DNA of 64,000 nucleotides from Marivirga atlantica (GTDB taxonomy: Bacteria > Bacteroidota > Bacteroidia > Cytophagales > Cyclobacteriaceae): the NCBI RefSeq assembly GCF_016734805.1, contig NZ_JAERQG010000001.1, positions 1,550,001-1,614,000 on the forward strand, given 5' to 3'. Position 1 is the first letter of the stretch. Each line of letters starts with the position of its first letter. The notes beneath the pieces were generated by a model. It was not told the origin of the DNA. It saw nothing but the letters and a program-made list of their open reading frames with translations, and searched no databases. The translations under genes and the position numbers were made by a program. Positions 1,981 to 53,697 of this stretch are shown one piece after another.

Positions 1981-3258
1981 CTAAAACTGAGCTTCTTCAG
2001 TAGAACCTTTCAAGGCGGTAGTAGAAGCTTTTCCTTGTGTTACTGTATTTTGAACCATATCAAAGTAAGCGGTACCCACAAATGCCTGGTGCTTCACAGC
2101 TTTGAAGCCATCTGCCTGAAGCGCAAACTCTTTTTGTTGCAGTTTAGAGTAACCAGCCATGCCTTCTTCTTTGTAGGCCTTACTGATTTCGAACATAGCC
2201 GTATTTAAGGCATGGAAACCTGCCAATGTGATGAACTGGAACTTATAACCCATCTCAGCTAATTTTTCTCTGAACTCTAACATCTCATTTTGTGTCAGTT
2301 TAGAAGCCCAGTTGAATGAAGGGGAGCAGTTGTAAGCCAACATCTTATCAGGATACTTTTCTTTAATAGCCTGAGCAAATTCTCTTGCTTCTCCTAAGTC
2401 AGGATGTGAAGTTTCACACCAGATAAGGTCGGCATAAGGGGCATAGCTCAAACCTCTACTGATAGCTTGCTGTAAACCATTTTTTACTTTGAAGAAACCT
2501 TCATCAGTTCTTTCACCACTTTCAATAAACTCGTGATCTCTTGGATCGATGTCGCTTGTTAATAGGTTAGCAGCGTCTGCATCAGTTCTGGCTATGATTA
2601 TAGTGGGCGTACCCATTACATCGGTTGCTAAACGAGCGGCAACCAATTTGTTGATAGCTTCCTGAGTAGGTACTAATACTTTTCCGCCCAGGTGACCACA
2701 TTTTTTAGCAGACGACAATTGGTCTTCAAAGTGAACACCAGCTGCTCCGGCTTCAATCATGCCTTTCATTAATTCGAAGGCATTTAAGTTGCCACCGAAG
2801 CCTGCTTCTGCATCTGCAACAATTGGCGCTAACCAATGTACATCACCTTCACCAGTTACCGACTGGATTTGGTCTGCTCTTAATAGGGCATTGTTAATAC
2901 GCTTTACAACACTCGGTACACTATCGGCAGGGTAAAGGCTTTGGTCTGGGTACATTTGGCCACCTAGGTTCGCATCTGCAGCTACTTGCCATCCGCTTAA
3001 ATAGATTGCTTTTAATCCGGCCTGAACCTCCTGAATGGCCTGGTTTCCTGTAAGAGCTCCTAAGCCAGCTACATATTCTTCAGACTTTAATAGGTTCCAA
3101 AGTCTTTCAGCACCGTGCTTAGCTAAACTGTGCTCGATTTTCACAGAACCACGTAGTTTCACTACTTCTTCTGCTGTATAAGGTCTTTCAACACCTTTCC
3201 ACCTTGGGTTGGTAGACCATTCTTGTACTAATTCATTTATCTTTTCTTGCGTAGTCAT
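1981..3258 (-). CDS. aceA: Isocitrate lyase
   Basis: Cytoplasmic enzyme of the glyoxylate shunt that splits isocitrate into glyoxylate and succinate, allowing growth on acetate or fatty acids. At 425 residues it has the usual bacterial length. The family signature is complete: the catalytic KKCGH motif is at residues 185-189 (C187 is the active-site base), preceded by GVHFEDQ, with the substrate/Mg region [10 protein letters not shown] near 148-156 and NCSPSFNW further on. It follows aceB by 48 bp on the same strand, so the two are very likely co-transcribed from the promoter upstream of aceB. A strong terminator follows. Confidence 0.97.
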
Positions 3259-22865: not shown

Positions 22866-22889
22866 CTTAATTAGCTTTTATTTATTCAA

Positions 22890-22916
22890 ACAAAAAATCC
22901 CACTTATGTGGGATTT
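22890..22916 (-). terminator. Rho-independent terminator of hslU
   Basis: Perfect 9-bp stem AAATCCCAC/GTGGGATTT with a 4-nt loop, then six T on the minus strand, directly after the hslU stop codon. Confidence 0.85.
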
Positions 22917-22921
22917 GAAAT

Positions 22922-24316
22922 TTATAAAATGTAGTGACTTAAGTCTTTATTCTTGATGAGCCCAGCTAATCGTTCCTGCACCATTTCTTTGGTGACTACG
23001 ATTTTAGCATTAGCACCAATTTTGTCAGGAACATCAAATAATAAGTCATTCAATAATTTACTCATTACAGTATGTAGCCTTCTGGCACCTATGTTTTCTA
23101 CCTCTTCATTAATGGTAAACGCCATTGAAGCTATTTCTTCAAGCGCATCATCGTTGAAAACCAAATCCACTTCCTCAGATTTTAATAAGGCTGTATACTG
23201 CTTTGTTAAAGCATTTTTTGGTTCCTGAAGGATAAGTAGGAAATCTTCTTTTGTGAGGCTGTTTAATTCAACTCTGATCGGGAATCTGCCTTGAAGTTCA
23301 GGAATTAAATCTGATGGCTTACTTACATGAAATGCACCTGCAGCTAAGAAAAGTATATGATCTGTATGGATGATGCCATATTTAGTATTTACTGCGCTAC
23401 CTTCTACTATTGGTAGTAAATCACGCTGAACACCTTCACGGCTAACATCACCACCAGAGCTGTTACTTCCACTTTTAGCAATTTTATCAATCTCATCAAT
23501 AAAGATCATACCGGTGTTTTCTGCCTTTCTGATGGCTTCATCTTTCACCTCATCCATATCGATGAGTTTTGAAGATTCTTCTTCCAATAAAAGCTTTCTT
23601 GCCTCGGCTATAGTCACCTTTCTGCGCTTATTCTTCTTAGGCATCATGTTATTCAGCATGTCCTGGATATTAATCATAGAACTTTCATCCATCATGCCAC
23701 CACCAACTACGCCCATTCCATTACCCGAAGGAGCCTTTACATTAATGTCAATTTTTCTATCTTCCAGCTCCCCATTCTGCAGTTTTTCTCTGAAGCGTTC
23801 TCTGGTTTTCTGATTAAGCTCATAGTCATTTTGTGGAACGCCATCGTCAGCCGTGGTGCTCACAGGCTTGTTGTTTGTGCTTTTCATTGGAGGAATAAGC
23901 GCATCAAGAATGATGTCTTCAACAACTGCTGCAGCTTTTTCTTTCACCTCTTCCTTTTTGGCTGCCTTCACCAAATTTACGGACTGTTCTACAAGGTCAC
24001 GCACCATGCTTTCAACATCACGGCCTACATAACCCACTTCCGTAAATTTGGAAGCTTCTACCTTAGTAAATGGCGCATCGGCAATTCTGGCTAGTCTTCT
24101 GGCAATTTCAGTTTTACCGACACCTGTAGCCCCAATCATTAGGATGTTGTTAGGAACGATTTCACCCTGAATGTCTTCAGGTGTATTCATTCTTCTCCAA
24201 CGGTTTCTCAGCGCAATGGCTACATTTCTTTTTGCATCGCCCTGGCCGATAATGTATTTGTCTAATTCCTGAACTATTTCTTTAGGAGTAAGGAAGTTAT
24301 TTTTATTCATACTCAT
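22922..24316 (-). CDS. hslU: HslU, ATPase subunit of the HslUV protease
   Basis: A 464-residue AAA+ unfoldase that feeds substrates to the HslV peptidase. The N-terminus has LDKYIIGQGDAKRNVAIALRNR, Walker A GATGVGKT (62-69), the pore-loop GYVGRD, an inserted I domain (about 110-240) with a glycine/methionine-rich stretch, Walker B IFIDEIDK and sensor residues in GRFPIRVEL. The C-terminal tail LSHYIL matches the peptide that docks into HslV. No hslV gene lies in the window, which is notable because many bacteria encode hslVU together. It may share a transcript with porQ and lon upstream. Confidence 0.96.
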   Translation of the reverse strand: MSMNKNNFLTPKEIVQELDKYIIGQGDAKRNVAIALRNRWRRMNTPEDIQGEIVPNNILMIGATGVGKTEIARRLARIADAPFTKVEASKFTEVGYVGRDVESMVRDLVEQSVNLVKAAKKEEVKEKAAAVVEDIILDALIPPMKSTNNKPVSTTADDGVPQNDYELNQKTRERFREKLQNGELEDRKIDINVKAPSGNGMGVVGGGMMDESSMINIQDMLNNMMPKKNKRRKVTIAEARKLLLEEESSKLIDMDEVKDEAIRKAENTGMIFIDEIDKIAKSGSNSSGGDVSREGVQRDLLPIVEGSAVNTKYGIIHTDHILFLAAGAFHVSKPSDLIPELQGRFPIRVELNSLTKEDFLLILQEPKNALTKQYTALLKSEEVDLVFNDDALEEIASMAFTINEEVENIGARRLHTVMSKLLNDLLFDVPDKIGANAKIVVTKEMVQERLAGLIKNKDLSHYIL

Positions 24317-35062: not shown

Positions 35063-35135
35063 GACTCGCTAGCTCAGCTGGTAGAGCATATCCCTTTTAA
35101 GGATAGGGTCTTGGGTTCGAACCCCAAGCGAGTCA
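35063..35135 (+). tRNA. tRNA-Lys (anticodon TTT), copy 1
   Basis: A 73-nt cloverleaf: 7-bp acceptor GACTCGC/GCGAGTC, D arm GCTCAGCTGGTAGAGC, anticodon stem TATCC/GGATA with loop CTTTTAA (anticodon TTT), T arm TTGGGTTCGAACCCCAA, discriminator A. CCA is not encoded. Confidence 0.97.
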
Positions 35136-35177
35136 CTTAAGTTTAATGGAAACATTAAACTTTAAATGATGTTAAGA

Positions 35178-35212
35178 AAGCTCCACTTGAATGAAGTGGG
35201 GCCTTTTTTTTC
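35178..35212 (+). terminator. Terminator after tRNA-Lys copy 1
   Basis: A stem of CTCCACTT/AAGTGGGG type with a short loop is followed by eight T, between the two tRNA-Lys copies. Confidence 0.75.
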
Positions 35213-35238
35213 TCAAAAATTTTGCGCCTAGCGCTGCT

Positions 35239-35311
35239 GACTCGCTAGCTCAGCTGGTAGAGCATATCCCTTTTAAGGATAGGGTCTTGGGTTCGAACCC
35301 CAAGCGAGTCA
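35239..35311 (+). tRNA. tRNA-Lys (anticodon TTT), copy 2
   Basis: Identical over all 73 nt to copy 1 at 35063, in the same orientation 103 bp downstream. Flanking sequences differ, so this is a gene-sized tandem duplication kept identical by selection or gene conversion. Confidence 0.97.
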
Positions 35312-35427
35312 CAAGGTGTAAACTCGGTGAAGTAGTTTAGTGATGGTTAATGTTTTAATATCCGAGTGAGGCACTAAGTATCGAATATTGGTTTAGGTTT
35401 ATTTTTCGGTACAACAAATTGCAAGAG

Positions 35428-35458
35428 ACCTATCTGCCTTTGGCAGGTAGGTTTTTTT
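35428..35458 (+). terminator. Terminator between tRNA-Lys and tRNA-Leu
   Basis: An 11-bp stem with one G-T wobble (ACCTATCTGCC/GGCAGGTAGGT) and a 3-nt loop, followed by seven T. Confidence 0.85.
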
Positions 35459-35495
35459 GCGTATGCGGGTGAATTATTTATATTTGATCCCATTA

Positions 35496-35579
35496 GCGCA
35501 CGTGGTGGAATTGGTAGACACGCCATCTTGAGGGGGTGGTGGGCGCAAGCCCGTGGAAGTTCGAATCTTCTCGCGCGCA
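35496..35579 (+). tRNA. tRNA-Leu (anticodon GAG)
   Basis: An 84-nt class II tRNA with a long variable arm (TGGGCGCAAGCCCG). The anticodon stem is CCATC/GGTGG around loop TTGAGGG, giving anticodon GAG. The T arm is GGAAGTTCGAATCTTCT. The acceptor pairs GCGCACG with CGCGCGC, leaving one A-C mismatch (35500 with 35574). CCA is not encoded. Confidence 0.93.
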
Positions 35580-35589
35580 CAAGCAACAA

Positions 35590-35630
35590 AAAAGCCCTGA
35601 CTGTTTAACAGTCAGGGCTTTTATTTTTTG
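35590..35630 (+). terminator. Strong terminator between tRNA-Leu and the convergent PLP gene
   Basis: A 13-bp stem (AAAGCCCTGACTG/CAGTCAGGGCTTT) with a 5-nt loop and a T-rich tail. A-rich sequence on the other side allows action in both directions, serving the convergent gene that ends at 35644. Confidence 0.88.
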
Positions 35631-35643
35631 GTTCAGTAAAGCC

Positions 35644-37017
35644 TTAATCAGAAAAAGCCATCAACAAATCTTGTTTAGTAATAATGTGTGCTTTTTGGTT
35701 TTCATCTAAAACCATTAAAGCTTTCTCTCCATGATTCATCATTGATGAAATAGTATCAACTGTAGTGTTGGCAGCAATAAATTTAAATGGGCTATCCATT
35801 ATTTCTTCAATTGGCTTTCCTTTAAGTTCCGGGTTTTCAACCAACTTATTTAATATTTTGGCATCAGTAACGCTTCCAACAAATTCACCTTTACCATTTG
35901 TTACAGGTAACTGCGATACGGAAAGTTTATCGAGCATTTTTACCACTTCAGAAACCTTAGTGTTTGCTTCTACTGATTTTAAGTCGAAAGAGCCATTTCT
36001 TTTGCTAACAATATCAGCAGCTGTTGCATAATCATTGTTTTCTAAAAATCCATGATCTCTCATCCAGTCGTCATTGTAAATTTTACCCAAGTATCTGGTG
36101 CCATGATCTGGTAGTATAATCACCATAATATCATCTTCCTTAAGGTTTTCTTTGGCATATTCTAAAGCACCATGTACGGCAGAACCACAAGACCATCCAC
36201 AGAAAAGACCTTCTTCTCTTGCTAATCTTCTCGTCATGATAGCACCATCCTTATCAGTTACTTTAACAAAATGATCAATAACTGAGAAGTCAACATTTTT
36301 TGGCAGGATATCTTCACCAATACCTTCTGTTAAGTATGGGTAAATTTCCTTCTCATCAAACTCGCCTGTTTCTTTATATTTCTTGAAAACAGAACCATAA
36401 GAATCGATGCCAACGCTAATGATATCAGCATTCTGCTCTTTTAAGTATTTACTAGTTCCGCACATTGATCCACCAGTTCCAACACCTGCTGCCCAGTGTG
36501 TTATTTTACCTTCTGTTTGTTCCCAAATTTCAGGCCCTGTAGTTTCATAATGAGCTACCGAATTAGATGTATTGTCATATTGGTTAGGGTAGAACGAATT
36601 AGGTATATCCTCATTTAATTTCTTAGCAACTGAATAGTAGGAGCGAGGATCGTCAGGCGATACATTAGTAGGGCATACAATTACTTCAGCACCTACAGCT
36701 CTTAGGATATCCATTTTTTCTTTTGACTGCTTATCAGCTAAAGTAAAAATGCATTTATATCCTTTTGAGATGGCACCTAAGGCTAACCCCATGCCGGTAT
36801 TACCGGAGGTACCTTCTATAATAGTTCCTCCTGGTTTCAGAAGACCTGCCTTTTCAGCATCTTCGATCATTTTTAAGGCCATTCTATCTTTCATGGAATT
36901 ACCAGGATTGAAATATTCAACTTTAACTAGAATTGTGCCTGGCACACCTTTATTAACCTTATTTAATTTTACTAATGGTGTGTTACCAATAGTCTCTATT
37001 ATAGAGTTATAATACAT
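35644..37017 (-). CDS. Cystathionine beta-synthase-type PLP enzyme with CBS domain pair
   Basis: A 457-residue enzyme. Residues 1-320 are a fold-type II PLP domain: the Schiff-base lysine in NPGNSMKDRMALKM, the GTSGNTGMGLA substrate loop, GTGGSMCGTSKYL phosphate loop, and SYGSVFKKY. Residues about 335-457 form two CBS motifs (VSEVVKMLDKLSVSQLPVTN and TVDTISSMMNHGEKALMVLD). This matches cystathionine beta-synthase (serine plus homocysteine), possibly with cysteine-synthase or H2S-producing activity. No N-terminal haem-binding extension is seen. In Bacteroidota such genes are often labelled simply 'pyridoxal-phosphate dependent enzyme'. Confidence 0.88.
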   Translation of the reverse strand: MYYNSIIETIGNTPLVKLNKVNKGVPGTILVKVEYFNPGNSMKDRMALKMIEDAEKAGLLKPGGTIIEGTSGNTGMGLALGAISKGYKCIFTLADKQSKEKMDILRAVGAEVIVCPTNVSPDDPRSYYSVAKKLNEDIPNSFYPNQYDNTSNSVAHYETTGPEIWEQTEGKITHWAAGVGTGGSMCGTSKYLKEQNADIISVGIDSYGSVFKKYKETGEFDEKEIYPYLTEGIGEDILPKNVDFSVIDHFVKVTDKDGAIMTRRLAREEGLFCGWSCGSAVHGALEYAKENLKEDDIMVIILPDHGTRYLGKIYNDDWMRDHGFLENNDYATAADIVSKRNGSFDLKSVEANTKVSEVVKMLDKLSVSQLPVTNGKGEFVGSVTDAKILNKLVENPELKGKPIEEIMDSPFKFIAANTTVDTISSMMNHGEKALMVLDENQKAHIITKQDLLMAFSD

Positions 37018-47406: not shown

Positions 47407-48087
47407 TTATTGAACTAATTGCATGGTGGGCTTTAGTCTTTCGGCTATTTGAGAAACTGAGTAGTTGTCGAAAAGCTTATTGTTAATTTCTAACTCAATT
47501 CCAGTATACTGTTTGGAATATTTTTCTCTGAAAAGGCTTACCAAGCCATCATCCGTACCAAGATATGGGTAGTTCATTTTCACTCTCCAATCTGGCTCAT
47601 TTTTACTTATCTTTTTGAGCCATAGTTCTGCAAATTTTAATTCCTCAGCATTATCAGGATCAAACAAAAGACCAATCTCCGCACTTCGAATATCACCATT
47701 TAGCACTGGAGTAAAGCTGTGGACCGAAATATGAATGAAAGGTTCTTTTTCAATAATTGCATTTTCAATGTATTGACTCAATTTATCTATATAAGGTATA
47801 TATAGCTCGTTTATCAAGCTTTCTTTCTGCTCGATATTGAATTGCTTACTTATTTCAGAGAAAAGATCAGGATGTTTCAATGTCCGATTTTGCTCTATTA
47901 ATAACCTACTGGTAGTGCTGTAAATAAAGTCAGCTTTTAGGAGTGAGGCAAAATATTTAGCTACTGCTAAAGCTCCTTTGTCCCAGCCTTTATGAGAGTT
48001 GAGCAGGTCTTTGTGCGCAGTAAAATAATTGAGGTAAGCAGGAGGGATTTTATTACCTCCATGCTCACAACTTATTATGTATTTCAT
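47407..48087 (-). CDS. N-formylglutamate amidohydrolase-family protein
   Basis: A 226-residue metal-dependent amidase. Family motifs: SCEHGGNKIP (zinc ligands E and H) at residues 5-14, HKGWDKGALAVAKYFA, LIEQNRT, FIHISVHSFTPVL, and AEIGLLFDP. The named family hydrolyses N-formylglutamate in histidine breakdown, but no hut genes are present. Here it overlaps the GCS2-type ligase gene by 4 bp, so it more likely trims an amide made by the ligases of this operon. Confidence 0.85.
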   Translation of the reverse strand: MKYIISCEHGGNKIPPAYLNYFTAHKDLLNSHKGWDKGALAVAKYFASLLKADFIYSTTSRLLIEQNRTLKHPDLFSEISKQFNIEQKESLINELYIPYIDKLSQYIENAIIEKEPFIHISVHSFTPVLNGDIRSAEIGLLFDPDNAEELKFAELWLKKISKNEPDWRVKMNYPYLGTDDGLVSLFREKYSKQYTGIELEINNKLFDNYSVSQIAERLKPTMQLVQ

Positions 48088-49316
48088 TGACGAGGCGTAT
48101 AGAGCCTGTTATTTTTGAGGCAGTCTGCCAATATCTTATATTCTTTTATAATATTCTCTATAGAAGGTTTTTCTGAATTTAGATTTGTGACAATTCTCTC
48201 AGAAAGGTTTCCGTTTGTTAAAATATTAAGAATAGCGGCTTCACTTTCCGGTGATAGTCGTACTTCTGCTAAAATACTTTTCCATACATTTCGAATGCTA
48301 ATTTCCTGATCCGGAACAAAACCAAAAAGCTTTAAATACGAAGTATTCTCAATTGAACCGTTTGAACCTTCTTCCAATGCTGTTCTATAAATAGGGTATA
48401 ATTCAGTTTCAGAAAAGTATGGAATGATATCAAAGCGCTTAATCAGCCACTTTAAACTTTCAATGATGAGCTCAGCGATTGCGATATCAGCCACAGGACA
48501 TTCCTGCAAATCAATAATTCTAATTTCAATGGCATTTCTGTCGAATCTGGTAATAGCACCTCTGGAATTTAGCCATTCTTCCTGAAGGATATTGTCAGTA
48601 TCAAAAGGGGCTATTGCTTTATAAGTTTGCTCAAGAATTTTTTCTTCATACTCTTTTTTATTCTTCACTGATTCCGGAATAACCTTGCCTGTGATAGCAG
48701 GTATTTTCTGCTGGTTCAGTTCATAGAAGTTTAAACGGTTGTCTTTAAAAGGACCGATGTTACCTTCATAAATAGGACTTGAAGCACTCAATGCAGGGAT
48801 TAGTGGCATTAATATTCTAATAGCTTCATGCAGCTTGAAAAATTCGTCATCATTGGCAAACGGCAAGTTGATATGCATGCTTTGCAGGTTACCCCAACCA
48901 TGACCTTTACAATTAAAGATTTTATCATACTGCTCATAAATCTCATTTCTGTGATGTGGCCATAGCTTAAGATCCTTTAGTGGATTCAAAAAAGGATGCA
49001 TAGCCGTTGGCATCAGCATGACACCATCCTCAGCTAATAATTTATTTATTTCTTCAACATTTGCATGAAAAGCACCTGAAATACCATCAAGCGATTTTAC
49101 AGGATGTGTAGTTTTTAATTCTACCACATGTAAAACCAATTCATTTGACCAGCTGATCAGCCCGTTTTCTAACTCATCAGTAATAGCTCCATGCTTTTTA
49201 ATGATAAGTTTATCAGTTGAAGCTTCAGGTTGAAGTGTCTTTTGATTTACGAGCATATACTCGAGCTCAATACCCACACATTCAAATAATTTATAGGGAG
49301 ACTTGTGTAAGATCAT
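48084..49316 (-). CDS. GCS2-type glutamate-cysteine ligase-like enzyme
   Basis: A 410-residue carboxylate-amine ligase of the glutamine-synthetase-like superfamily. The N-terminal FECVGIELEYMLV carries the metal-binding E-x-E, WGNLQSMHINLPFAND follows, and the arginine-rich segment NAIEIRIIDLQECPVADIAI closes the active site. The family makes gamma-glutamyl amides using ATP. With no gshB and an ATP-grasp partner 9 bp upstream, glutathione synthesis proper is less likely than a modified amino-acid or peptide product. Confidence 0.85.
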   Translation of the reverse strand: MILHKSPYKLFECVGIELEYMLVNQKTLQPEASTDKLIIKKHGAITDELENGLISWSNELVLHVVELKTTHPVKSLDGISGAFHANVEEINKLLAEDGVMLMPTAMHPFLNPLKDLKLWPHHRNEIYEQYDKIFNCKGHGWGNLQSMHINLPFANDDEFFKLHEAIRILMPLIPALSASSPIYEGNIGPFKDNRLNFYELNQQKIPAITGKVIPESVKNKKEYEEKILEQTYKAIAPFDTDNILQEEWLNSRGAITRFDRNAIEIRIIDLQECPVADIAIAELIIESLKWLIKRFDIIPYFSETELYPIYRTALEEGSNGSIENTSYLKLFGFVPDQEISIRNVWKSILAEVRLSPESEAAILNILTNGNLSERIVTNLNSEKPSIENIIKEYKILADCLKNNRLYTPRQ

Positions 49317-49325
49317 ATAATAGGC

Positions 49326-50789
49326 TTAAGCCATTTTAGATTTTTGTATTCCTTTTAAGAAGACCTGCATAATTTCTGTGTATAGTTTGTCTTTTAGAAA
49401 TGCATCTTCAACGCCCGTATCAATATTAGGGTTATCATTTATTTCAATAATAAAAAACTGATCACCTTTCTGCTTAATATCAACGCCATACAAGCTTGGT
49501 CCAATCAGTTTTGCGAGCTTCTCAGCTATTTTTATAGCACCCTTTGGTGCTTGTTCTACTGCCATGGTTTCCACCTTCCCGTACCTGCCGGCTGTTTTAT
49601 TTTTGTCCCAGGTTACAATTTGCCAGTGCTTGCCACTCATGAAATATTTGCAAGCATAAATAGCCTTTCCATCAATTACGCCTATGCGCCAGTCAAAATC
49701 AGTTTGAAGGAACTGCTGCCCAACAATAAGGTCTGATTTTTCCAGCAAAGCATTCACTTTGGCCACATATTCAGCCTCATCAACTGCTTTGGTAACACCT
49801 TGGCTAAAAGCGCTATCAGGTTGTTTAAGGATAATAGGATACCCTAAAATATCTGGTGCCAGCATCATATTATCTTTATGGATAATGACAGTTTCAGGCG
49901 CACTAATTTTATGCATCTTTAAGAGCTCAGCCAGATAAACTTTATTACTGCATTTAATAATGCTTTCAGGGTCATCTATTACCACCAGACCATCAGCCTG
50001 CCCACGCTGAGCAAAACGAAAAGTATGGTGATTTACCGCAGTAGTTTCTCTTATAAACAGCGCATCATAAGATGATAATTCGTTATAATCATCTTTGGTG
50101 ATGAGTTCGGCATGAATACCCAAGGCATCAGCAGCTTTGATAAACTTCTGAAGGGTCTTCTCGGAGCTAGGGGCTGTAGTTTCCTCAGGATCCCATAAAA
50201 TGGCCATGTCATAACCTTTGGTATTGCGCTCAGGTACATTAAATTTCTTAGACTCAAAATACTTTTTAGCAGCAGCCTGAACAAAGTCCTTATGGTCATC
50301 TGGGATTTCACTTGTTGTGATTGCCGAGATATTAGATATAACCCATTTCTGATTACTATTTGTAAAATGCGCTCTTATAAAGGGCGATTGAAAAAGGTTA
50401 AAAAGTTGTAAGCTTATGCTGTCATATTTCTTCGATAGGTTTTTACCGAAATAGATAGATAAGGTGAACTTATCAGACTTAATGTCTTTTAACGATTTTT
50501 GAATATTCGCTTCTAACTCAGCTGTTAAGATTTTAATAACTGAGCTTGACTTCATGTCCTGGATGGTAGCAATACTTGGAATAGCTTTATGCTTCCTTGC
50601 GGCAGCCAATAAGGATACATAATAGCCTGAACTTTGATATTTAAAGTTTCTGCTCAGGTTAAAAATTTTAGCATTCTTTAATGCCGGATATTTAGGGTTG
50701 GTAAGGTACTGTTTAGCTGTTATCACCTCAACTCCCTCAATGTTAAAATCCCAATCTTTAAGATTGGATACTACTATTATTATTTGCAT
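49326..50789 (-). CDS. RimK-like ATP-grasp ligase with RLAN-type N-terminal domain
   Basis: A 487-residue ligase. Residues about 1-190 resemble the RLAN domain (RimK-like ATP-grasp N-terminal), starting IIIVVSNLKDWDFNIEGVEV with the family-typical NLSRNFKYQSSGYYVSLLAA. Residues about 290-480 are the ATP-grasp fold: YPIILKQPDSAFSQGV (ATP-binding lysine), DWRIGVIDGKAIYACKYF, YGVDIKQKGDQFFIIEINDN with the Mg-binding E and N. It joins an amine to a carboxylate with ATP cleavage. It abuts the C39-like peptidase gene without a gap, upstream of GCS2. Confidence 0.86.
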   Translation of the reverse strand: MQIIIVVSNLKDWDFNIEGVEVITAKQYLTNPKYPALKNAKIFNLSRNFKYQSSGYYVSLLAAARKHKAIPSIATIQDMKSSSVIKILTAELEANIQKSLKDIKSDKFTLSIYFGKNLSKKYDSISLQLFNLFQSPFIRAHFTNSNQKWVISNISAITTSEIPDDHKDFVQAAAKKYFESKKFNVPERNTKGYDMAILWDPEETTAPSSEKTLQKFIKAADALGIHAELITKDDYNELSSYDALFIRETTAVNHHTFRFAQRGQADGLVVIDDPESIIKCSNKVYLAELLKMHKISAPETVIIHKDNMMLAPDILGYPIILKQPDSAFSQGVTKAVDEAEYVAKVNALLEKSDLIVGQQFLQTDFDWRIGVIDGKAIYACKYFMSGKHWQIVTWDKNKTAGRYGKVETMAVEQAPKGAIKIAEKLAKLIGPSLYGVDIKQKGDQFFIIEINDNPNIDTGVEDAFLKDKLYTEIMQVFLKGIQKSKMA

Positions 50790-51494
50790 TTATTTATTCT
50801 GAATGATTAGTAAGTTGGCATCGTAAGTTAAGATGCCCAATAAAATAGAACAGATTAGATGATCTGTTGCTACAGTATAATGTTGTTTATTATAGGCGTT
50901 TGCCTGTAACGGATCTGATATTTTAACTGTTTTTTCAACAGGATCCATGCCATTAAGTACCACAAAATGTCCTGAAGGATTGCCCGCTACATCATCAAAA
51001 CGGACAGGGTCACTACCAATTTCTCTTTTCTCATTATATAAATAGGTGGCACTTAAGCCGGTTAAAACAGGGATTTCTTTTGATAGATAATTGAATATCA
51101 AAGCTTCATTAAGTGTTTTATAGCTTATTTTTCCGCCCATTTCTAAAAAGGAGATATAAGCTTTTGATGCCTGTCTGAATTTGGGATCCGTTTTATAATT
51201 AAGCTGTTCATTGAGCTTCGCCACCAAATCTATATCTGTTGATTCAAACCAACTGGGGTCAAATACTTTTAAGTTGTAAGTAATGATCTCTGCTTCGAAA
51301 CCTCTTTTCAGGGCGTCAATTCCTAGAAGAGCACCTAAGGTTCCACCATCTTTCAGGTATTCTACATTATTGATTACTTCGTTAAGTGTTATTTCGTAAT
51401 CAAAGTAATTATAAACGGCATGTAAGCAAGTGGGGCCACAGGTACTGTCATCGGGCTGTCTGGAAATATCCAGAGATAAAATTTTCTCTTTCAA
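50790..51494 (-). CDS. C39-like papain-fold peptidase
   Basis: A 234-residue cysteine peptidase-fold protein and first gene of the ligase operon. RQPDDSTCGPTCLHAVYNYF gives the Gln and catalytic C19 of the C39 family; the histidine is in GHFVVLNGMDP and the aspartate in VKISDP. No transporter domain and no signal peptide, so it is cytoplasmic, unlike bacteriocin C39 peptidases. It may process a peptide substrate or act in reverse as a transferase within the pathway. Stop and next start are adjacent (50790/50789). Confidence 0.83.
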   Translation of the reverse strand: MKEKILSLDISRQPDDSTCGPTCLHAVYNYFDYEITLNEVINNVEYLKDGGTLGALLGIDALKRGFEAEIITYNLKVFDPSWFESTDIDLVAKLNEQLNYKTDPKFRQASKAYISFLEMGGKISYKTLNEALIFNYLSKEIPVLTGLSATYLYNEKREIGSDPVRFDDVAGNPSGHFVVLNGMDPVEKTVKISDPLQANAYNKQHYTVATDHLICSILLGILTYDANLLIIQNK

Positions 51495-51737: not shown

Positions 51738-51938
51738 ATGGGTAAAGGAGATAGAAAATCAAAAAAAGGAAAAATTGCAAAAGGTTCATTCGGGGTAAGA
51801 AGACCTAAAAAACCTAAGCACGATGTAGCATTAAATCCTCCTGCAGAAGAAAAGAAGCCTGCTAAAAAGACGAAGACTACTGCCAAGAAGTCAACAACTA
51901 AAAAAGCTACTAAAAAGAAGGAGAAGGAAGAAGCATAA
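51738..51938 (+). CDS. 30S ribosomal protein THX with long lysine-rich tail
   Basis: A 66-residue very basic protein. The first 26 residues (MGKGDRKSKKGKIAKGSFGV, then RRPKKP) match the short THX protein that fills a cavity in the 30S head in Thermus and many Bacteroidota. Residues about 36-66 are a Lys/Thr/Ala-rich tail resembling histone H1 (KTKTTAKKSTTKKATKKK), which makes it more than twice the length of Thermus THX. It precedes the trp leader region on the same strand. Confidence 0.85.
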   Translation: MGKGDRKSKKGKIAKGSFGVRRPKKPKHDVALNPPAEEKKPAKKTKTTAKKSTTKKATKKKEKEEA

Positions 51939-51965: not shown

Positions 51966-51996
51966 TTTGCAAAATTCTAAATCAGGTCTACATTTG
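51966..51996 (+). promoter_or_regulatory. Promoter of the trp operon
   Basis: TTTG (51966-51969), a 19-bp spacer and TACATTTG (51989-51996) match the Bacteroidota consensus exactly. Transcription should start about 5-7 bp further on, practically at the ATG of the first leader peptide (52002), so that leader may be translated from a leaderless or near-leaderless mRNA. Confidence 0.7.
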
Positions 51997-52001
51997 TAAA
52001 A

Positions 52002-52052
52002 ATGACTTTGACTAACACAAATAATAACTGGTGGTGGGCTTCTAAATTTTAG
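52002..52052 (+). CDS. trp operon leader peptide 1 (three consecutive Trp codons)
   Basis: A 16-codon ORF, MTLTNTNNNWWWASKF, with TGG TGG TGG at 52029-52037 and TAG at 52050-52052. Its last codons form a hairpin (CTTCTAA/TTTAGAAG) with the sequence just after the stop. This is the layout of a classical ribosome-mediated tryptophan attenuator: stalling at the Trp codons when charged tRNA-Trp is scarce. Confidence 0.85.
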   Translation: MTLTNTNNNWWWASKF

Positions 52053-52107
52053 AAGGCGGTATCGGTATATTTAAAATTTAAACCCCGCCTACAAGCGGGG
52101 TTTTTTT
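52053..52107 (+). terminator. trp attenuator 1: antiterminator and terminator
   Basis: The terminator is a perfect 8-bp GC-rich stem, AACCCCGC/GCGGGGTT (52081-52102), followed by TTTTT. The upstream AAGGCGG (52053-52059) can instead pair with CCGCCT (52085-52090), giving the competing antiterminator. A ribosome stalled at the leader Trp codons would leave AAGGCGG free and favour read-through. Confidence 0.85.
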
Positions 52108-52121
52108 ATGACTTTTTTAAA

Positions 52122-52181
52122 ATGATAATACAAAACAAAAACATATGGTGGTGGCTTTACAATTCTTCCCAAACAGGATGA
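52122..52181 (+). CDS. trp operon leader peptide 2 (three consecutive Trp codons)
   Basis: A 19-codon ORF, MIIQNKNIWWWLYNSSQTG, beginning 14 bp after the T tract of terminator 1. TGG TGG TGG lies at 52146-52154. It is unrelated in its other residues to leader 1, so it is probably not a recent duplication of it. GTGGCT (52151-52156) can pair with AGCCAC (52186-52191), a leader-proximal hairpin of the type used in attenuators. Confidence 0.82.
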   Translation: MIIQNKNIWWWLYNSSQTG

Positions 52182-52243
52182 ACCGAGCCACTATGCGTAA
52201 TTTTAGAAGAGCTTGTCGGACATCCGGCAGGCTCTTTTTTTTT
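52182..52243 (+). terminator. trp attenuator 2: terminator upstream of trpE
   Basis: An 11-bp stem with wobble pairs (GAGCTTGTCGG, loop ACAT, CCGGCAGGCTC) at 52209-52234 is followed by nine T. CCGAGC (52183-52188) may pair with part of the 5' arm as antiterminator, but this is less clear than in attenuator 1. trpE starts 36 bp after the T tract. Confidence 0.8.
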
Positions 52244-52278
52244 GACTTAAACTTTAACAAAGCACACAATATTCCAAC

Positions 52279-53697
52279 ATGCAAGTAAAAAAACGACACA
52301 TAAGTTTACCAGCTGATTCTTTTACACCGGTTGGTCTTTACCTAAGGCTAAGAGATCAATTTTCAAATACCATTCTATTGGAAAGTAGTGACTACCATAC
52401 CAGAAGAAATAGCTTTAGCTATATAGCGGTACAATCTTTAGTTGATATCCAAAGTGATGGTAAAAAGCTTCTCACAAATATTGAGGGTGAAGAAAACGCC
52501 ATTGAAGTTGATGATCAATTGAAAGTGGCAGAGAAGCTCAATGATTTTATTTTCCAGTTCAAATGTAACAAGATTTTACCGCAGGATGAATTTGAAGAAA
52601 GTGGTTTCTTTGGTGCAACAGCTTTTGATGGGGTGCAGTTTTTTGAAGATATCACCTTTAAAAATGAGGCATCCAATATTCCTTTCTTACGCTATCATTT
52701 TTATCGCTTTGTGATTGTGTTCGATCATTTTAAAGATGAGCTGCATATTTTTGAACACACAATCGATAAGTCATATGACTATACTTTGGATGATTTGATC
52801 CAACTGATTCTGAATAGGTCTTTACCGCAGTTTAAGTTTGCTAAAGAAGGAGAGGAAACCTCTAACCAAACCGATGAAGAATTTTTGAAGATCATCAACA
52901 AAGGAATAGACCATTGCAAAAGAGGGGATGTTTTTCAGATTGTACTTTCCCGCAGGTTCCAGCAAAAGTTCAAAGGTGATGAATTTACCGTGTACAGAGC
53001 ACTTCGCTCGCTAAATCCATCGCCTTATTTGTTCTATTTCGATTATGGTGATTACAAATTATTCGGCAGCTCACCGGAAGCACAAGTAAGTATCAAAGGA
53101 GATAAAGCTTATGTGAATCCTATTGCCGGAACCTATAAAAGGACAGGAGATGATAAGGCCGATGCAGCACTTGCTGAAAAGCTGTTAAATGATGAAAAGG
53201 AAAATGCTGAGCATACCATGCTGGTTGACCTGGGTAGAAATGATCTTTCTAAAAATGGATCAGATGTTAAAGTAGATGTTTACAAGGAAGTACAGTTCTA
53301 TTCACATGTTATTCACCTGGTGAGTAAGGTAAGTGCAACAGTGCCTGAAAGGTCTTCCATTAAATTATTAGGAGATACCTTCCCGGCAGGTACTTTGAGT
53401 GGTGCACCAAAATACATGGCGCTAAAACTTATAGATGAATACGAACCAACTTCACGCGGACTTTATGGAGGTGCAGTAGGCCTTATAGGCTTATCAGGAA
53501 ACCTCAATCATGCTATTGTGATCAGGTCTTTTGTGAGCAGAAACAATACACTTTCTTATCAGGCTGGAGCGGGAGTAGTAGCTTTATCAAATCCTCAAAG
53601 TGAGCTTGAAGAGGTTCATAACAAACTTTTTGCCCTGCGAAAAGCCATGGAAAAAGCTGAGCATATGTTTGACACCCAAAATGGAAAGGCAAAATGA
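52279..53697 (+). CDS. trpE: Anthranilate synthase component I
   Basis: A 472-residue enzyme converting chorismate to anthranilate with ammonia from TrpG. The N-terminal LLES-x10-S motif (L33-S36, S47) forms the tryptophan feedback pocket, so allosteric inhibition adds to attenuation. The C-terminal chorismate-binding core shows FQIVLSRRFQ, SPYLFYFDYGDYKLFGSSPE, NPIAGTYKRTGDD, HTMLVDLGRNDLS and SRGLYGGAVG. First structural gene after two attenuators; it overlaps trpG by 4 bp. Confidence 0.96.
   Translation: MQVKKRHISLPADSFTPVGLYLRLRDQFSNTILLESSDYHTRRNSFSYIAVQSLVDIQSDGKKLLTNIEGEENAIEVDDQLKVAEKLNDFIFQFKCNKILPQDEFEESGFFGATAFDGVQFFEDITFKNEASNIPFLRYHFYRFVIVFDHFKDELHIFEHTIDKSYDYTLDDLIQLILNRSLPQFKFAKEGEETSNQTDEEFLKIINKGIDHCKRGDVFQIVLSRRFQQKFKGDEFTVYRALRSLNPSPYLFYFDYGDYKLFGSSPEAQVSIKGDKAYVNPIAGTYKRTGDDKADAALAEKLLNDEKENAEHTMLVDLGRNDLSKNGSDVKVDVYKEVQFYSHVIHLVSKVSATVPERSSIKLLGDTFPAGTLSGAPKYMALKLIDEYEPTSRGLYGGAVGLIGLSGNLNHAIVIRSFVSRNNTLSYQAGAGVVALSNPQSELEEVHNKLFALRKAMEKAEHMFDTQNGKAK

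Follow-up and report, generated by a model that had tools for sequence, protein, structure and literature searches.

We report two trp leader elements in tandem 5′ of trpE in a 64,000-nucleotide (nt) stretch of the Marivirga atlantica genome (contig NZ_JAERQG010000001.1, positions 1,550,001 to 1,614,000 of the forward strand; hereafter the window, with coordinates counted from its first letter). The approximately 340 bases that precede trpE hold, in order, a promoter, a leader open reading frame (ORF), a terminator, a second leader ORF and a second terminator. We read them as one transcript on which two complete ribosome-mediated (translation-coupled) transcription attenuators, each responding to charged tRNA-Trp, follow one another before trpE, and give this reading a probability of about 0.85. 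The tandem trp leader arrangement is real and conserved, and the sequences, compared across relatives, show the parts, order, conservation and complementarity of both elements. The features are as follows, with the promoter and antiterminators being predictions.

51966–51996, + strand: Bacteroidota-type promoter, TTTG at 51966–51969 and TACATTTG at 51989–51996, fitting TAnnTTTG
52002–52052, + strand: leader ORF 1, MTLTNTNNNWWWASKF, with three TGG codons at 52029–52037 and stop codon TAG at 52050–52052
52027–52066, + strand: element 1, 1:2 hairpin, in which the Trp codons pair with the downstream strand and the inner stem spans the stop codon
52054–52090, + strand: element 1 antiterminator (2:3), AGGCGG 52054–52059 with CCGCCT 52085–52090 and GGT 52064–52066 with ACC 52082–52084
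52080–52107, + strand: terminator 1, stem 52080–52103 and then a T tract, kept in nine species
52122–52181, + strand: leader ORF 2, MIIQNKNIWWWLYNSSQTG, with three TGG codons at 52146–52154 and stop codon TGA at 52179–52181
52144–52199, + strand: element 2, 1:2 hairpin, in which the Trp codons pair with 52185–52199; consensus in nine species
52176–52225, + strand: element 2 antiterminator (2:3), GGATG 52176–52180 with CATCC 52221–52225, and weaker flanking pairs
52205–52242, + strand: terminator 2, stem 52205–52238 and then a T tract, kept in nine species
52279–53697, + strand: trpE, first gene of trpEGDCFBA, which is followed by a DAHP synthase gene and runs to 59894 (from Pfam matches and ORFs)

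Conservation of the two elements

A reading made from the letters of the window before this analysis (the sequence-only reading) had described two leader ORFs with three adjacent TGG codons each, each followed by a hairpin and a T tract, and had matched AAGGCGG with CCGCCT as the antiterminator of the first; all of these lie where it had placed them. Its broader claim of two complete attenuators in series before trpE, each with its own Trp-codon leader, is upheld, and it is extended by the GGATG:CATCC antiterminator of element 2, which it had not named. The folding of both regions is stronger than expected from shuffled sequence, with z-scores of −3.72 for 52003–52110, where the element 1 hairpin is the consensus in nine species, and −5.56 for 52111–52245. 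Region 2 of element 1 sits immediately 3′ of the stop codon, and in element 2 the GGATG strand overlaps the TGA stop while its CATCC partner occupies the terminator loop and 3′ arm.

The sequence-only reading had named the absence of both triple-Trp (WWW) ORFs from relatives as grounds for rejecting it, and we found them conserved. Ten Marivirga genomes were searched, one of which (86% complete) gave no TrpE match, and both WWW leaders and both terminators are present in all nine species with a trpE locus. Besides the Trp codons and terminators, the stops and the 2:3 pairing are retained in both elements of these species, including the element 2 antiterminator core GGATG:CATYC in nine of nine, and terminator 2 has four pairs with changes on both sides across them. 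Outside the Trp run the leader peptides vary (MQKRNTNIIWWWPSNI, MAIEMTNKIWWWTSYN, MINKLNNAWWWHKKTSETG and MKISINKAWWWHLET, among others). Covariance models built on the eight other Marivirga species, with the window excluded, recover both elements: the score is 92.2 bits for element 1 (E 9.5e-17) and 88.4 bits for element 2 (E 7.6e-19), as compared to 26.9 bits for the best unrelated place in the window. Each model also gives a low score, 28.7 or 20.5 bits, to the element it was not built for. Other matches of model R1 in the window (35587–35696, 22889–23013, minus strand) are gene-end hairpin terminators without a Trp leader.

The arrangement is rare by chance. Two terminator-like sites are observed where shuffling gives a mean of 0.4. 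We also surveyed the family, searching 148 genomes, of which 140 had a TrpE match and 130 upstream regions were examined (ten partial or low-scoring TrpE matches were left out); in 2600 dinucleotide shuffles of these 130 regions, one leader with two adjacent Trp codons plus a terminator arose six times and two never did. The pattern TGGTGGTGG-N55..85-T7 has two forward matches in the 4.19 Mb, 14-contig host genome, both at the trp leader, and none in reverse, and its backwards-read control likewise has no match in the 4.19 Mb. Across 291 genomes of the order, the stricter TGGTGGTGG-N-T7-N-TGGTGGTGG matches in the window's genome only, yet this pattern is too strict for counting tandems, as it missed those of genomes G107 and G023, in which the first leader has two adjacent TGG codons.

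Predicted switching and its expected effect

In the folding calculations, antiterminator and terminator exclude each other in both elements and the position of the ribosome sets which of them forms. With a ribosome on the Trp codons and the 3′ arm of the terminator still unmade, the antiterminator is predicted to fold at −11.1 kcal/mol in element 1 and −10.1 kcal/mol in element 2; with a ribosome at the stop codon the antiterminator is lost and the terminator folds at −15.4 and −24.1 kcal/mol, respectively. Because the element 1 pairing shares one register in only seven of the nine species, we dropped column-wise covariation as proof of its antiterminator (registers are shifted in the window and in Marivirga aurantiaca) and instead compared the complementarity of region 2 and the 5′ side of the terminator with 100 single-base shuffles of the spacer for each locus. 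Element 1 of the window reached a z-score of −3.49, equaled by 2 of 100 shuffles. The mean z-score was −3.22 for the first elements of 14 tandem loci (11 within the best 5%) and −3.14 for the second elements (13 of 14), as compared to −2.93 for the 120 family singles called by script (96 of them in the best 5%) and −2.11 for 72 more distant singles (43 of 72).

Several observations weigh against two working attenuators. When the full-length RNA is folded with the ribosome stalled, the minimum-energy state in both elements is still the terminator, such that the antiterminator must win kinetically, by order of synthesis; order of synthesis likewise decides in known attenuators. The antiterminator of element 2 in the window, taken alone, has a z-score of only −1.01, with 17 of 100 shuffles as good, and complementarity is weak in element 1 of the tandem loci L105 (z-score 0.07) and L170 (−0.87). 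The shifted registers noted above leave the 2:3 pairing of element 1 column-conserved in seven of nine species, and in an Rfam scan of the window, in which only tRNAs passed the thresholds, the trp leader families stayed below theirs.

The promoter consensus was taken from the available portions of PMC7366714 and PMC9723704. By this consensus motif alone, TAnnTTTG ends 4–7 nt 5′ of the leader 1 ATG in 13 of 14 tandem loci, with a TTG box as well in 12 of 14, and no such motif was found by consensus scan in the 70 nt 5′ of leader 2 in any of the 14; it is present in 64 of 120 family single loci. In the window only about 14 nt separate the first T tract from the second ATG, so that a −33 box for leader 2 would land in terminator 1. 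By consensus motif, one promoter may serve both elements. In Flavobacterium psychrophilum the −7 box lies at −12 to −5 according to the available text of PMC9723704, and by analogy transcription would start at about 52001, which would make leader 1 practically leaderless, with a predicted 5′ untranslated region (UTR) of 0–3 nt in 13 of 14 tandem loci. Leaderless mRNAs are given as 5.5% in F. psychrophilum and 5′ UTRs under 10 nt as approximately 3.7% in Bacteroides thetaiotaomicron in the portions at hand of PMC9723704 and PMC7366714, respectively.

From this anatomy we infer the transcription start, leader translation, stalling, termination and Trp dependence. A single transcript from about 52001 would carry both elements before trpE. 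When charged tRNA-Trp is short, a ribosome would stall on the TGG run, leaving region 2 free to pair with region 3, and the polymerase would continue; when it is plentiful, a ribosome reaching the stop codon, which abuts region 2 in element 1 and overlaps it in element 2, would cover region 2 and the terminator would form. Only transcripts passing both checks would reach trpE, which makes basal expression the product of two read-through probabilities. The sequence-only reading had expected two attenuators in series to multiply read-through probabilities and sharpen the response. In a toy steady-state model with two equal, independent attenuators in series, the multiplication is borne out, the fold-change rising from 7.9 with one attenuator to 63 with two (or from 6.0 to 35.6 and from 3.0 to 9.0) and the threshold rising about 1.6–2-fold, but there is hardly any sharpening, as the effective Hill coefficient moves from 1.0 to only 1.05–1.12.

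Distribution in relatives and rival explanations

Among the 130 family trpE loci, 9 are tandem, 120 single and 1 without a leader, as called by script and by eye; the script by itself gave 8, 120 and 2, and reading by eye reclassified two loci: L206, a single in the script call, is tandem (its terminator loop is 14 nt long), and L183, without a leader in the script call, is single (its leader begins with GTG). Three of the tandems are Marivirga, and the remaining six (L085, L105, L120, L170, L206 and L207) belong to six further genera, with one genome in each; the two sampled genus mates of L085 (L086 and L090) are single. No tandem was called in 76 more distant loci (72 single, 4 uncalled), a few of which could hide a first element as less than 600 nt upstream was available. 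The comparison with relatives that had been proposed for the window found the tandem in all nine Marivirga species and a single leader at most other family loci. Single trp attenuators, described beforehand as classic in Proteobacteria, are not limited to that group: they lie before trpE at 120 of the 130 family loci (119 called by script and 1 by eye) and at 72 of the 76 other Bacteroidota loci.

We built a TrpE tree from 50 of the 130 family loci, 6 further Marivirga and 3 others; 15 of its 59 rows are tandem, and the tandem state requires six changes on it. We tried a common origin of all tandems and rejected it, with a single clade giving p-AU 0.0013. An earlier tree that included L023 was discarded for the branch length of 10 and odd composition of that locus; in it L222 (G037) fell beside Tenacibaculum, such that its contig may be misbinned or transferred. 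Gain and loss of the tandem state are indistinguishable on the TrpE tree. Locus L098, which the tree analysis put beside a tandem locus, has one clear leader of the element 1 type (56.7 bits with model R1; 2986–3111, minus strand) and, before trpE, a weak element 2 trace without Trp codons (2896–2962, minus strand; 18.3 bits, E 0.12); it is possibly a decayed tandem, which fits loss of element 2. In searches with models R1 and R2 over 93 of the 127 family loci outside Marivirga, the R1 score minus the R2 score was higher for the first element in five of six non-Marivirga tandems and reversed in L206, although for two of them, L170 and L207, element 2 scored with R1 below the lowest value listed. 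This is no more than suggestive of the same two types, element 1 and element 2, in all tandems.

Taken across the family, serial attenuators with the same signal may be a recurrent architecture (seven genera among the loci examined) that was gained or lost repeatedly. The same charged tRNA would be tested twice on every trp transcript, first through a leader that is leaderless and then through one that is initiated internally, multiplying the range and lowering basal expression; we hold this tentatively, at a little under even odds. A division of labor would account for the same pair of leaders in another way, with both reading the same codons but different states: element 1, for example, might respond to ribosome supply or to leaderless (70S) initiation, while Trp-tRNA over another range would be sensed by element 2. 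The very short predicted 5′ UTR of leader 1 in nearly all tandem loci, the need for leader 2 to start internally and the rarity of leaderless mRNAs in F. psychrophilum (available text of PMC9723704) would suit it, yet three adjacent TGG codons are kept in both leaders of all nine Marivirga species, which points to the same signal, and we consider such a division unlikely. Each element is self-sufficient, as would also be expected if two alternative promoters drove one attenuator each, with element 2 on a second start site and never in series. Leader 2 could have a promoter of a non-consensus type; even then the upstream transcript would still cross both elements, and with the consensus found before leader 1 in 13 tandem loci and before leader 2 in none of 14, and the space for a −33 box taken up by terminator 1, separate promoters are very improbable.

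Redundancy, in which a duplicated or imported attenuator is kept by drift with little regulatory effect, would explain why the tandem state is scattered over the tree, with its six changes, 15 of 59 tandem rows and rejected single clade, and why L098 has one clear element and a weak second trace, as if element 2 could be lost. A copy of approximately 120 nt under no selection should decay, however, while in the nine Marivirga species both elements retain their Trp codons and stop codons, their terminators and the 2:3 pairing; we judge drift very improbable. Finally, the two short terminated RNAs predicted here, or their peptides, might act in trans, which would explain why two are made, and the peTrpL of Sinorhizobium meliloti is reported to do so in the accessible part of PMC7298713. 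With peptides that differ between species apart from the Trp run, action in trans is a highly improbable explanation of the pair. Two attenuators in series on one transcript remain our preferred reading.

The textbook trp attenuator has one leader peptide and one terminator, and a genus-wide double copy would test what stacking buys: by the toy arithmetic, a lower basal level, a wider range and a higher threshold, with hardly any added steepness. Natural comparisons are offered by the relatives, scattered over the family, that have one element or two, such as L085 versus L086 and L090, and a first leader with almost no 5′ UTR, as predicted here, is relevant to the way in which translation of attenuator peptides starts in Bacteroidota.

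Genomic setting and known systems

Downstream of the leader the operon order is trpEGDCFBA-aroF (Pfam matches, with gene letters assigned by family), and the closest named relative of its TrpE is that of M. aurantiaca (80% identity). On the other side, 51738–51938 (+ strand) encodes a small basic protein resembling ribosomal protein Thx (Pfam Thx, 27.7 bits versus a cut-off of 29.7); a Thx-like ORF precedes trpE in 24 of 136 family and genus loci, 0 of 76 distant loci and 11 of 15 tandem loci. A divergent cluster at 47407–51494 (minus strand), which may represent a pathway for a small peptide or a thiol, encodes N-formylglutamate amidohydrolase-like, glutamate-cysteine ligase family 2, RimK-like ATP-grasp and C39-peptidase-like proteins. 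Farther away, two tRNA-Lys (ttt) genes and one tRNA-Leu (gag) gene lie in a row at 35063–35580 (+ strand).

In the Rfam check proposed for the window, neither trp leader family reached its cut-off, and matches under threshold served as leads only. Trp_leader (RF00513), the Escherichia coli type, shares with element 1 a Trp-codon leader and the 1:2, 2:3 and 3:4 alternatives, and element 1 (52023–52108) aligns to it end to end, but at 28.6 bits against a cut-off of 41; it also has one element rather than two and belongs to another phylum and promoter type. Bacteroid-trp (RF01692), the Bacteroidetes trp leader family, in which single leaders are known (available parts of PMC2864571), has Trp codons in the 1:2 hairpin and aligns end to end with element 2 (52102–52217), again below its cut-off (27.3 bits versus 49, E 0.51), and no tandem arrangement is mentioned in those parts. 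Given these scores, we do not file the elements under RF01692 or RF00513, though they would work in the same way. The top Rfam match, ncr1015, at 31.1 bits against a cut-off of 60, we attribute to chance, as any hairpin followed by a terminator may resemble it. No gathering-level Rfam match was found in 20 loci (11 tandem and 9 others, singles included), and as single trp attenuators are near-universal before trpE in this bacterial family, its leaders appear poorly covered in Rfam.

Single Bacteroidota trp leaders are already known. In the literature searched, with subscription journals thinly covered and earlier print possible, we found no account of two same-signal ribosome-mediated attenuators in series for one amino acid. 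T-box riboswitches, unlike the Marivirga elements, bind tRNA directly and use no leader peptide or ribosome. Tandem T-boxes before Firmicutes trp operons are alike in that two elements that sense tRNA, or three in Streptococcus macedonicus, follow one another ahead of the trp genes (available text of PMC12452182), and a Gammaproteobacterial rimP leader has a second terminator (PMC2965389, in the portion available). In Salmonella mgtCBR, as described in the accessible portion of PMC3641672, two leader ORFs likewise act on one leader transcript as tandem attenuators, but with different signals, whereas the two Marivirga leaders share the same Trp codons and each has its own terminator.
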